The notes under the pieces are model-generated. The model did no database searches. It was not told where the DNA came from and saw only the letters and a program-made list of their open reading frames with translations. Made by a program: the position numbers and the translations under genes. A stretch of 43,423 bases of DNA from Alphaproteobacteria bacterium (GTDB lineage: Bacteria > Pseudomonadota > Alphaproteobacteria > UBA6615): contig JAKUPN010000016.1 of assembly GCA_022449545.1 (NCBI GenBank), positions 1 through 43,423 on the forward strand. Direction: 5' to 3'. Position 1 is the first letter of the stretch. Each line of letters opens with the position of its first letter. Shown piece by piece: positions 32,019 to 43,423 of the stretch.

Positions 32019-32879
32019 TTATTTAATTTTATTGTCTTCATGCCTAGACAATTGAGCCATTACTGCAGCTGCCGTTTCCTCAATAGATCGTCTCGTTACA
32101 TCAATAACAGGCCAATTTTTTTTGTTAAAATAACGCCGGGCCTGAGTTATCTCAGCCTTAACTTCTTCCAAGTCTATATATGGAGTCTCTCCCTCTTGTT
32201 TGAGAATAGCCAATCTTGCACGCCTCAGTTCCACCAGCCTTTTGGGGTCATTTGTAAGTCCAATTACAATTGCATTTTTCACTTCATCAAGAATTTTAGG
32301 TAAAGGAATTCCAGGCACAAAAGGAACATTTACTGCTCTCACTCCCCTATTAGCTAAGTACAGACATGTAGGAGTTTTTGAAGTTCTTGATACGCCCACC
32401 AATATAACATCTGAATTATCGTATTCTTCGGCTCTTTGGCCATCATCATGGGCTAAAGCCCAATCCATTGCCTCTATTCTATGAAAATATTCAGCATCCA
32501 TTTCATGTTGGCCACCAATTCTATGAATAGGTTGAGCACCCAAGAATTGTCCTAAAGCTGCAATAACTGGATCAAGAACTGAGATGCACGGCAACTTGAG
32601 GCGCCTGCAACCATCTCTTAACTGCTCCCTTAGTGTTTCATCTACTAAAGTGAACATTACCGGACCCGGTTTGGCTTCAATAGCTTCCAGAACAACTTTC
32701 ATTGCATGTTTTGTCCTTGCCATTGGCCAAACATGTTCAACCGGCTCAACATCTTCAAATTGAACCAAACACGCTCGAGCAACAGAATGGATGGTTTCTC
32801 CTGTAGAATCAGAAACCAAATGAAAGTCAAACGACTGATTTTGTTTATAGTCAGATGTCGAAAATTGTTCCTCCATCAA
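32019..32879 (-). CDS. ppsR: Pyruvate, water dikinase regulatory protein (PPSR/DUF299 family, RP001 homologue)
   Basis: Bifunctional kinase/pyrophosphorylase that phosphorylates PEP synthase or PPDK. The 286 residues carry the P-loop-like GVSRTSKTPTCLYLA near 157-171, and a fully conserved N-terminus (SDSTGETIHSVARA). Met1 (32879) or Met2 (32876) can start, with AGGGAA upstream. In Caulobacter and Rickettsia the homologue, called RP001, flanks the chromosomal replication origin opposite hemE, exactly the arrangement here. Confidence 0.95.
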   Translation of the reverse strand: MMEEQFSTSDYKQNQSFDFHLVSDSTGETIHSVARACLVQFEDVEPVEHVWPMARTKHAMKVVLEAIEAKPGPVMFTLVDETLREQLRDGCRRLKLPCISVLDPVIAALGQFLGAQPIHRIGGQHEMDAEYFHRIEAMDWALAHDDGQRAEEYDNSDVILVGVSRTSKTPTCLYLANRGVRAVNVPFVPGIPLPKILDEVKNAIVIGLTNDPKRLVELRRARLAILKQEGETPYIDLEEVKAEITQARRYFNKKNWPVIDVTRRSIEETAAAVMAQLSRHEDNKIK

Positions 32880-32908
32880 TTTATTCCCTGTTGAAAAATT
32901 ATGGATAC

Positions 32909-32917
32909 TGTAGATAA
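32909..32917 (-). promoter_or_regulatory. DnaA box, one mismatch
   Basis: TTATCTACA on the minus strand, one mismatch from TTATCCACA, inside the predicted origin. Confidence 0.5.
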
Positions 32918-33009
32918 CTCAACAAAACTTTAGTTAAAAAAATATTATTAACTAATAGAGATTTATAATTAACAATTTCATACTCAGCAGAACAAAACCT
33001 TCAACTATG

Positions 33010-33018
33010 TGTGGATCA
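33010..33018 (-). promoter_or_regulatory. DnaA box, one mismatch
   Basis: TGATCCACA on the minus strand (TGTGGATCA on plus), one mismatch from TTATCCACA, 15 bp from the perfect box at 33034. Confidence 0.55.
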
Positions 33019-33033
33019 AATTTCTGTATCGTC

Positions 33034-33042
33034 TTATCCACA
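33034..33042 (+). promoter_or_regulatory. DnaA box, perfect
   Basis: Perfect TTATCCACA on the plus strand inside the predicted origin. Confidence 0.75.
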
Positions 33043-33046
33043 CATA

Positions 33047-33172
33047 TATCCTCAAATTATTTATCAACCATAATCGTATATATAGAATACAATTCTTATA
33101 CTTAAATTAAATTATCCACAAAAAAAAAGATCTAGTGACAAGCTATATATATATACAACAAATTTGAGGATA
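33047..33172. repeat. 12-bp inverted repeat in the predicted origin
   Basis: TATCCTCAAATT (33047-33058) and its exact reverse complement AATTTGAGGATA (33161-33172), 102 bp apart. They enclose the second perfect DnaA box and the (TA)6 run. The function is unknown, and an origin-protein binding site is possible. Confidence 0.6.
33112..33120 (+). promoter_or_regulatory. DnaA box, perfect
   Basis: Perfect TTATCCACA on the plus strand, immediately before the A9-run and AT-rich stretch that may be the unwinding element. Confidence 0.75.
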
Positions 33173-33329
33173 AAATTTAAATACCGTTTCTCAAAAGAAT
33201 ACTACAACAACAAATATAATTAATTAATTTTATATTATTGATTTAGACCTAGAAAAAACAATTTCCAGGCCCATAATACATAATTTAATAATTTTACTAC
33301 TTTTGATTTAGAAAGAAGAAATACAAAAA

Positions 33330-34364
33330 TTGTCTAAACTTATTTTATTATCTCTTGAAGGAAAAAAATTACCAAGACCACCGTTTTGGTTTATGCGCCA
33401 AGCTGGACGTTATTTACCCGAATATAGAGACATTAGAAAACGTGCTTCTTCATTTCTCGATCTTTGTTACCAACCCGAGATTGCTTCAGAAATAACACTT
33501 CAACCAATACGAAGATTTCATCCTGATGCAGCTATTTTGTTTTCTGATATTCTTGTTATTCCAGATGCATTAGGCCAAAAACTAGAGTTTAAAGAAGGTG
33601 TTGGCCCTTGCTTAGATCCTATTCGCACAGCCATAGAATTAAAAAGTTTATCACTTAAGAGTTGTGATAAAAAATTAAGTCCAATATTAGAAACTATAAA
33701 ATATGTTAAGGAAAAACTTCCTGAGGATGTTGCATTGATTGGATTTGCTGGATCACCCTGGACTGTGGCAACTTATATGGTTGAAGGTGGTACTAGTAGA
33801 AATTTTATTTCTATAAAGAAATGGGCACGAAATGATCCCAATAGCTTTAATAAACTTATGGATATAATAGTAGACAGCACATGTGATTACATAATCGGAC
33901 AAATAGAGGCTGGAGCTGATGTAATTCAGTTATTTGATACTTGGGCAAGCGCAGTTCCTGCGGATCAGTTCCAAAAATTAGTTATTGAGCCAACCCAAAA
34001 GATTATAAACCGTGTTAGAAAGATAAAACCAAAAACTAAATTTATTGGATTTCCGAAAGGCATAGGATCAGCTATTTCATATTATGCAAAGGAAACAGGT
34101 GTTAATTGTTTGAGTATTGATAGCTCTATTTCACCTGAAATCGCCGCAAAATGCTTGCATCCGAAATATACAATTCAGGGTAATCTAGATCCAATAGCAT
34201 TATTGGTAGGCGGTAATTCGATGTTAAATAGTGCTGATAATATTATAAAAACCTTAAATAACGGACCTTTTATTTTTAACTTAGGCCATGGAATTGTCCC
34301 TGAAACACCACCAGAAAATGTTGAACTTCTTGCTGATTTTATCCGCTCTAGGGGAAAAGGATGA
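33330..34364 (+). CDS. hemE: Uroporphyrinogen decarboxylase
   Basis: Converts uroporphyrinogen III to coproporphyrinogen III in heme synthesis. The 344 residues include the active-site RQAGRYLPEYR (Arg23, Arg27). FSDILVIPDALG and the late GNLDPIALL and NLGHGIVPETP motifs are also present. The frame begins at TTG (33330-33332): no ATG or GTG lies before the conserved region, so a TTG start is likely, with GAAAGAAG upstream. It overlaps hemH by 4 bp. Confidence 0.97.
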   Translation: MSKLILLSLEGKKLPRPPFWFMRQAGRYLPEYRDIRKRASSFLDLCYQPEIASEITLQPIRRFHPDAAILFSDILVIPDALGQKLEFKEGVGPCLDPIRTAIELKSLSLKSCDKKLSPILETIKYVKEKLPEDVALIGFAGSPWTVATYMVEGGTSRNFISIKKWARNDPNSFNKLMDIIVDSTCDYIIGQIEAGADVIQLFDTWASAVPADQFQKLVIEPTQKIINRVRKIKPKTKFIGFPKGIGSAISYYAKETGVNCLSIDSSISPEIAAKCLHPKYTIQGNLDPIALLVGGNSMLNSADNIIKTLNNGPFIFNLGHGIVPETPPENVELLADFIRSRGKG

Positions 34365-40904: not shown

Positions 40905-41009
40905 ACAGGTTTTTCAATGATAAAATATTTGTATAAAAAAATAGAAAATAATTTAATTGAGCTTAGAGTTTTTGCAATAAAGTATCAAAGTCTTTAAGGA
41001 CAGTTTTTG

Positions 41010-42341
41010 ATGATAGACACTATTTATTCTCTTTCTACAGGCGCAGGCTCTTCTGGGGTTGCAATAATCCGTTTATCTGGGTCGGCCTCTGAAGAGGTTT
41101 TGAAAATACTGACAAGAAAGCAAACCCCTAAACCGAGATTAGCGTCTCTTCGAAGGATTCATAGTCCAGTAAATCAGGATGCTATTGATGAAGGAATAGT
41201 TATCTGGTTTCCAGGGCCTAACAGTTATACTGGTGAAGATGTTGTGGAATTTCATGTGCACGGTGGTCCTTCAATAACAGAAGAGGTTCTTAAATCGATT
41301 TCAACGATAGGCTCATGTCGGATAGCTGAACCGGGTGAGTTTACCCGTCGAGCCTTTCAATCAGGTAAAATGGACCTTACCTCTGCAGAGGCAGTCGCTG
41401 ATTTGATCGATGCAAAGACAATTGAACAACGAAGGCAGGCTCTCAAGCAATTCGATGGACAATTAGCGGGATTATATGACGAATGGAGAAAACAACTTAT
41501 AGATTTACTGGCTTATGCTGAATCAGCTATAGACTTTTCTGATGAAGAACTTCCTGAGAACATAAATAAAACTATAAAACACAATATATTGTGTATTAAA
41601 GATAGAATAGCACAACATATAGATGATAAAATGGTTGGAGAACGAATTCGTTCTGGATTTCGTGTTACAATAGTAGGGGCGCCTAATTCAGGGAAAAGCA
41701 GCCTTTTAAATCGATTAGCGACGAGAGATGCTGCTATTGTTTCTGATATAGCAGGTACAACCAGGGATGTAATTGAAGTGCAAATGAATTTGGAGGGTTT
41801 TGCGGTCATCATCTCCGACACAGCAGGTATAAGAGATGCCCAGAACGAGGTAGAAGTTGAAGGGGTTAGACGTGCAAGAAAATCTGCCGACGAGGCAGAT
41901 CTACTTGTGGTCGTGTTTGATGCTCTTGATTTACCGAATATCAGCGATCTTACTTCAACATATATCACTGATAAATCGCTGGTTCTTATAAATAAAGTTG
42001 ATGTGCTTGAACATAATCTACCAAGTGAAATAAATGGTAAAGAAATTTTGGGGGTTTCGGCTAAAACTGGTGAAGGCTTTGAAGAATTTCAATTAAAATT
42101 AAATCAAGATATTAAAAATTATTTTAGAAATAATGAACAACCAGTTTTGACCAGAGTGCGTCATCGTGAGGCCTTGGAGGAGGCTCTAGTATCTCTAAAT
42201 AGGTCAAGTCAGGCCAAACTGCCTGAATTAGTTGCTGAGGATATTAGGCTGGCTGTTCGTTCTATTGGTAAAATAACAGGCAGAGTTGATGTAGAAGACG
42301 TATTGGATATAATCTTTAACGAGTTTTGCATTGGTAAATGA
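41010..42341 (+). CDS. mnmE: tRNA uridine-5-carboxymethylaminomethyl(34) synthesis GTPase MnmE
   Basis: GTPase that, with MnmG, modifies wobble U34 of several tRNAs. From the ATG at 41010 (AAGGA upstream) it has 443 residues, with the tetrahydrofolate-binding N-terminus (SLSTGAGSSGVAIIRLSG) and a G domain (GAPNSGKSS near 219, DTAGIRD, NKVD). The C-terminal FCIGK, whose Cys is functionally important in the family, is present. It precedes mnmG, its partner, by 110 bp. Confidence 0.97.
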   Translation: MIDTIYSLSTGAGSSGVAIIRLSGSASEEVLKILTRKQTPKPRLASLRRIHSPVNQDAIDEGIVIWFPGPNSYTGEDVVEFHVHGGPSITEEVLKSISTIGSCRIAEPGEFTRRAFQSGKMDLTSAEAVADLIDAKTIEQRRQALKQFDGQLAGLYDEWRKQLIDLLAYAESAIDFSDEELPENINKTIKHNILCIKDRIAQHIDDKMVGERIRSGFRVTIVGAPNSGKSSLLNRLATRDAAIVSDIAGTTRDVIEVQMNLEGFAVIISDTAGIRDAQNEVEVEGVRRARKSADEADLLVVVFDALDLPNISDLTSTYITDKSLVLINKVDVLEHNLPSEINGKEILGVSAKTGEGFEEFQLKLNQDIKNYFRNNEQPVLTRVRHREALEEALVSLNRSSQAKLPELVAEDIRLAVRSIGKITGRVDVEDVLDIIFNEFCIGK

Positions 42342-42451: not shown

Positions 42452-43423
42452 ATGATGAACTATGATGTCATAACGATTGGTGGAGGACACGCTGGTTGTG
42501 AAGCCGCCGCTGCTTCTGCTCGCATGGGGGCCAAGACCCTATTGATAACCCAGAAAATAGAAACCATTGGAGAAATGTCCTGTAACCCTGCAATAGGAGG
42601 ATTGGGTAAAGGGCACCTGGTTCGTGAAATTGATGCTTTGGATGGAGTTATGGGGAAGGCTATTGATAAATCCGGCATACAATACCGTATATTAAACAGA
42701 AGCAAGGGCCCTGCAGTCTGGGGCCCAAGAGCGCAGGCTGATAGAGCCCTCTATCGTTCCGCTATTCAGAAATTTCTCTTTGATCAAGACAACCTTGAAA
42801 TATGTGCTGGCACTGTAGATGACCTTAAATTTGATACTGCAGGGCATTTGGAAGGGGTTATATTAAGCAATGGAGATTTGTTTCTGTCCAGGCGAGTTAT
42901 TTTAACAACAGGAACTTTTTTGCGGGGTGTAATTCACATAGGGGAGCAACAGACACCGGCTGGTAGAGTTGGTGAAAAACCATCAGTAGCATTGGCTAAC
43001 ACATTGAATCAAATGGGTTTTTCCTTGGGGAGACTTAAAACAGGAACTCCTCCTCGATTAGATCGTGAAACAATTAATTGGGAGGGCCTCGAGGTTCAGC
43101 CCGGTGATGCAGAGCCAAAGCCATTTTCCTATTTAACTCATAAGATAGAAATTCCCCAGATAGTTTGTCACATTAGTCATACTAACTAAAAAGGCCATGA
43201 CTTGATACGTGCTAATTTGCATAAAGCACCTATTTATTCAGGACAAATAGAAGGTACAGGCCCCCGCTATTGTCCGTCAATTGATGATAAATTTGTTAGA
43301 TTTTCTGAAAAAAGTAGTCATCAAATCTTTTTAGAACCAGAGGGCTTAAACGACAGGACGATCTATCCGAATGGCATATCAACTTCGTTACCGTTAGACA
43401 TTCAATCACGACTACTCAAGACT
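42452..43423 (+). CDS. mnmG: tRNA uridine-5-carboxymethylaminomethyl(34) synthesis enzyme MnmG, interrupted by an in-frame stop and cut by the window edge
   Basis: FAD enzyme that works with MnmE on wobble uridines; the family is about 620 residues. The ATG at 42452 begins [21 protein letters not shown] with the FAD-binding GGGHAGCE and the [14 protein letters not shown] block intact. A TAA at 43187-43189 follows residue 245, just after SHTN. The same frame then continues to the window end for 78 codons of clear MnmG sequence ([47 protein letters not shown]). The family has Glu at this site, so one GAA-to-TAA change explains the stop. It is either a recent pseudogene or a sequencing/assembly error. 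Confidence 0.93.

Follow-up and report, generated by a model that had tools for sequence, protein, structure and literature searches.

The window analyzed here, a stretch of 43,423 nucleotides of alphaproteobacterial DNA, contains a 450-bp region between ppsR and hemE, and the question that this locus raises is whether it is the site where replication of the chromosome starts, as the original prediction proposed. The experimentally located origin of Caulobacter and the predicted origin of Rickettsia both lie between hemE and COG1806/RP001 (PMC1914354). A cluster of DnaA boxes, a local switch of GC skew, sequence conservation, a nearby parS site and the gene neighborhood jointly support this proposal, and, judging from these sequence features, we put the probability that the gap serves as oriC, the chromosomal origin, in this marine alphaproteobacterium at about 0.95. 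The gap shares the attributes of the hemE/COG1806 origins, namely the flanking genes, a length above 300 bp, an AT content higher than that of the genome, a DnaA box cluster and a local skew shift, and is well supported as an origin of the Caulobacter/Rickettsia type in a new species. Because this location is already known for such origins, the find is an ordinary one; it narrows the location of the origin in an uncultured marine lineage down to 450 bp and so aids the estimation of growth rates from metagenomic coverage.

Profile matches on both flanks (Table 1) place the gap between the PPSR/RP001 homolog and hemE, and further matches support the two gene blocks that point away from it in the predicted orders, that is, ppsR, maf, aroE, coaE and dnaQ leftward and hemE, hemH, hemJ and rho rightward. 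The flanking genes are the same as those of the Rickettsia prowazekii origin (PMC1914354), and Cori of Caulobacter crescentus likewise combines hemE and COG1806 flanks with an AT-rich gap of several hundred base pairs and multiple DnaA boxes (PMC1914354, PMC4468827). The gap is AT-rich as proposed (23 % GC compared to 39 % for the window), and both perfect DnaA boxes and the (TA)6 run were recovered; one-mismatch boxes are indeed present, but there are three of them rather than two. The second perfect box is the least conserved of the five. This box is bracketed by a 12-bp inverted repeat (33046-33057 and 33162-33173, ATATCCTCAAAT and ATTTGAGGATAA), with 11 of the 12 positions paired by eye. 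Another block, TCATACTCAG..GAACAAA at 32976-32999 (TCATCCCAAGGCGGATAAAG in relatives), is conserved and contains no one-mismatch match to the DnaA box. The IHF site pattern WATCAN5WTR matches the gap once, at 33231-33243 on the minus strand, and its stricter version WATCAANNNNTTR does not match it at all. An Rfam scan of the region produced zero matches and hence no known RNA element.

Table 1 Annotated features of the ppsR–hemE locus and of the right end of the window (positions in the window)
Feature	Position	Strand	Details
ppsR (COG1806/DUF299, RP001 homolog), left flank	32019..32879	-	PF03618, E=8e-91
Predicted oriC (ppsR–hemE intergenic region)	32880..33329	.	450 bp
DnaA box, one mismatch, TTATCTACA	32909..32917	-	84 % mean identity to five relatives
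DnaA box, one mismatch, TGATCCACA	33010..33018	-	91 % mean identity to five relatives
Perfect DnaA box, TTATCCACA	33034..33042	+	93 % mean identity to five relatives
Candidate DNA unwinding element (together with the DNA as far as hemE)	33044..33243	.	lowest stability (nearest-neighbor energy) of any 200-bp segment in the window
Weak DnaA-box-like site, ATATCCTCA, two mismatches	33046..33054	+	relatives align TTGTCCCCA/TTATCCCCG-type sites here
Perfect DnaA box, TTATCCACA	33112..33120	+	53 % mean identity to five relatives
(TA)6 run	33144..33155	.	absent as a conserved feature in the sister species
DnaA box, one mismatch, TTATCCTCA	33165..33173	-	82 % mean identity to five relatives
Candidate DnaA-trio element, ACTACAACAACA	33201..33212	-	minus strand reads GAT in the 3'-5' direction; 80 % identical across six sequences
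hemE, right flank	33330..34364	+	TIGR01464, E=2e-119
mnmE	41007..42341	+	first gene of the mnmE–mnmG–rsmG–parA–parB block, which runs on into contig C11
mnmG, 5' part, ended by the contig edge	42452..43423	+	in-frame TAA at 43187-43189

Across the window as a whole, one-mismatch versions of TTATNCACA are not enriched (40 observed compared to 53 expected), so the signal resides in the local cluster. Perfect boxes are rare, with only 17 copies of TTATCCACA in the 2,248,481 bases (47 contigs) of the genome, and the two in the gap, 78 bp apart, form the tightest pair of all; at the mean genomic density of perfect boxes, the probability of finding at least two of them in 450 bp is about 6e-6. The next tightest pair (C2:45901/46198, 297 bp apart) is also embedded in AT-rich DNA and, on these grounds, could be taken for an alternative origin, as could the vicinity of dnaA on contig C46. 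The C2 pair, however, lies between convergent genes (ChaC-like and plsC-like by sequence inspection) and outside the known origin neighborhood, whereas the dnaA locus contains no box cluster: the 20 kb around it hold only three one-mismatch boxes, each of them downstream of dnaA. When clusters that include one-mismatch boxes were scored in a 417-kb sample of the genome (about 19 %; perfect boxes were located in the whole genome), the ppsR–hemE gap ranked at the top with a score of 9, followed by 6, the score of the C2 region, and then by 4. Thus, the search for a denser cluster, which the original prediction had named as grounds for refutation, yielded none at dnaA and none above the score of the gap in this sample. 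The C2 pair was accordingly discarded as a second candidate on account of its convergent neighbors and lower score, and an origin at that site, near dnaA or at any other perfect-box site appears to us the most improbable of the readings considered here.

The boxes also stand out by their conservation. In the alignment with the nearest named relative, the sister species MarineAlpha12_Bin1 (hemE 84 % identical), box positions are 98 % identical compared to 80 % in the rest of the gap, and the difference persists as sequences are added (0.98, 0.89 and 0.81 within boxes vs 0.80, 0.65 and 0.49 outside them in 2-, 3- and 6-way alignments, respectively). Only 1–2 of the 449 circular shifts of the box mask do as well (1 of 449 for the sister-species pair). 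A blind search for 8-mers in 65 distinct ppsR–hemE gaps returned DnaA boxes as the strongest motifs: the two commonest 8-mers, TTATCCCC (40 of the 65 gaps, 1.4 expected) and TTATCCAC (27 of the 65, 0.8 expected), are about 30 times as frequent as in shuffled sequences.

The GC skew, which according to the original prediction should reverse sign at this locus over the full genome, does switch there in the window and in two contigs of the same genus, on a local rather than chromosome-wide scale. The cumulative skew of the window reaches its minimum at 33523, within the start of hemE, and the skew is -0.088 to the left of the locus and +0.060, a modest value, to the right. In the congeneric contigs G002:C5 and G001:C6 (about 490 kb each, sampled in 20-kb stretches), the sign flips at the ppsR–hemE pair, with some noise on the hemE side, where two of the four samples nearest to the locus are close to zero in G002:C5 and one of the two samples is negative in G001:C6. 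More broadly, 39 of the 43 alphaproteobacterial loci with sufficient flanking sequence combine negative skew on the ppsR side with positive skew on the hemE side, and the cumulative minimum falls within 1 kb of the gap in 25 of the 43.

The mnmE–mnmG block at the right edge of the window connects the locus to the partition genes. The end of contig C11 carries the remaining part of mnmG together with rsmG, parA, parB and a perfect parS (C11:29210). No sequence overlap between C11 and C8, the contig of the window, was found when looked for; their adjacency is deduced from the split mnmG and from the distance between parS and the origin gap in the sister genomes G002 and G001 (about 11–12 kb). 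If the two contigs adjoin, parS is located about 11.3 kb from the boxes on the hemE side, an arrangement similar to that in C. crescentus, with parS about 10 kb from the origin (within 8 kb of it as reported for Caulobacter; PMC4468827). The mnmG fragment contains an in-frame TAA at codon 246, after which the reading frame continues to the contig end; this could reflect a strain variant, an assembly error or a broken gene.

These observations bear on a further possibility, namely that the gap is merely the promoter region of the divergent ppsR and hemE genes, with the boxes present by chance or for transcriptional control by DnaA, and that the origin lies elsewhere. Divergent genes do require promoters in the gap, and near 33272 there is a conserved block, CATAAT/CATAGT, that resembles a -10 element of hemE. 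Promoters alone, however, leave unexplained the skew switch at the gap, the class-wide box array along with the strand-specific CTAC element described below, the nearby parS and the known origin position (PMC1914354), and we regard this possibility as very improbable, if marginally less so than an origin at another box site.

Under the preferred reading of the gap as oriC, the comparison of the 65 gaps suggests that a strand-specific CTAC element may serve as a conserved unwinding signal in alphaproteobacterial origins. The motif CTACnnC is present on the hemE strand in 50 of the 65 gaps, compared to 3 on the other strand and 12 in shuffled sequences, and its distance to hemE is fairly constant. 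In some relatives, the element has the sequence CTACTACTTC, complementary to 3'-GATGATGAAG-5', in agreement with the DnaA-trio (PMC8287927). As in the basal unwinding system of Bacillus subtilis, DnaA boxes in the window adjoin AT-rich DNA and a conserved CTAC element that is specific to one strand, the opposite strand reading 3'-GAT-5'. The published rule for that system calls for a DnaA box, a spacer of 0–16 bp and at least three 3'-NAN-5' trios (PMC8287927). By contrast, the element in the window, CTACAACAAC, consists of the repeats CTA-CAA-CAA-CAA, only the first of which fits the 3'-NAN-5' register, short of three trios. Applied here, the rule produces matches at chance level only, and since 77 % of the shuffled sequences match as well, it does not discriminate in AT-rich DNA and was abandoned as a test. 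The element is therefore best described as a candidate that resembles the DnaA-trio without matching its published register.

By analogy with these systems, DnaA would bind the boxes arrayed over 32909-33173 and would probably be anchored at the two perfect ones. Following the B. subtilis model, a DnaA filament could then spread from the box beside the AT-rich side onto the CTAC element, the AT-rich DNA between this element and hemE would open, and the helicase would be loaded, with forks proceeding in both directions. As in Caulobacter, the new origins might be separated via ParAB acting at parS, some 11 kb from the gap in the direction of hemE.

Control of the origin is the aspect in which this lineage appears to depart from Caulobacter. 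The gap contains neither TTAA-N7-TTAA, the strict CtrA site (0.2 expected), nor GANTC (0.7 expected), as originally noted, and its three loose CtrA matches are no more than chance would explain (about 2–2.7 expected), whereas Rickettsia origins usually have predicted CtrA sites (PMC1914354). The original argument from this absence to a mode of control unlike that of Caulobacter is invalid: with expected counts below one, and with seven relatives that possess CtrA also lacking strict sites in the origin gap, the absence is uninformative and was dropped as evidence. Neither does it disqualify the gap, because hemE/COG1806 origins with zero CtrA sites have been accepted as members of this group (PMC1914354). 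The conclusion itself is nevertheless favored by the gene content of the genus. A query with a Caulobacter CtrA sequence produced matches of 69–72 % identity in seven genomes of the family but of at most 34 % in the genus of the window; CtrA was thus undetected by this query in each of the three genomes available for the genus (96–100 % complete), as was ChpT (PF10090). GcrA and DnaA are present, together with a candidate CcrM-like methylase that has both CcrM domains and strongly matches the Caulobacter CcrM model, yet scores under the cut-off of that model, and a candidate HdaA that is also below its cut-off. Given the non-detection of CtrA and ChpT, control of this origin probably differs from that in Caulobacter, and the limit on initiation would more likely be set by the activity of DnaA, together with an HdaA-like inactivator, than by a CtrA block of the origin. 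More tentatively, and at somewhat less than even odds, the origin in this genus may be licensed without the CtrA phosphorelay despite the retention of GcrA and CcrM, CtrA having quit the origin before the loss of the gene, as the family-wide lack of strict sites suggests. The combination of GcrA and CcrM without ctrA is not new, given the report of Granulibacter, which lacks ctrA in a group that retains CcrM and GcrA (Brilli et al., PMC2877005). Across the family, ctrA and chpT adjoin in the genomes that have the two, and in many other genomes, some of them >95 % complete, neither was detected, a pattern that suggests repeated joint loss of the two genes.
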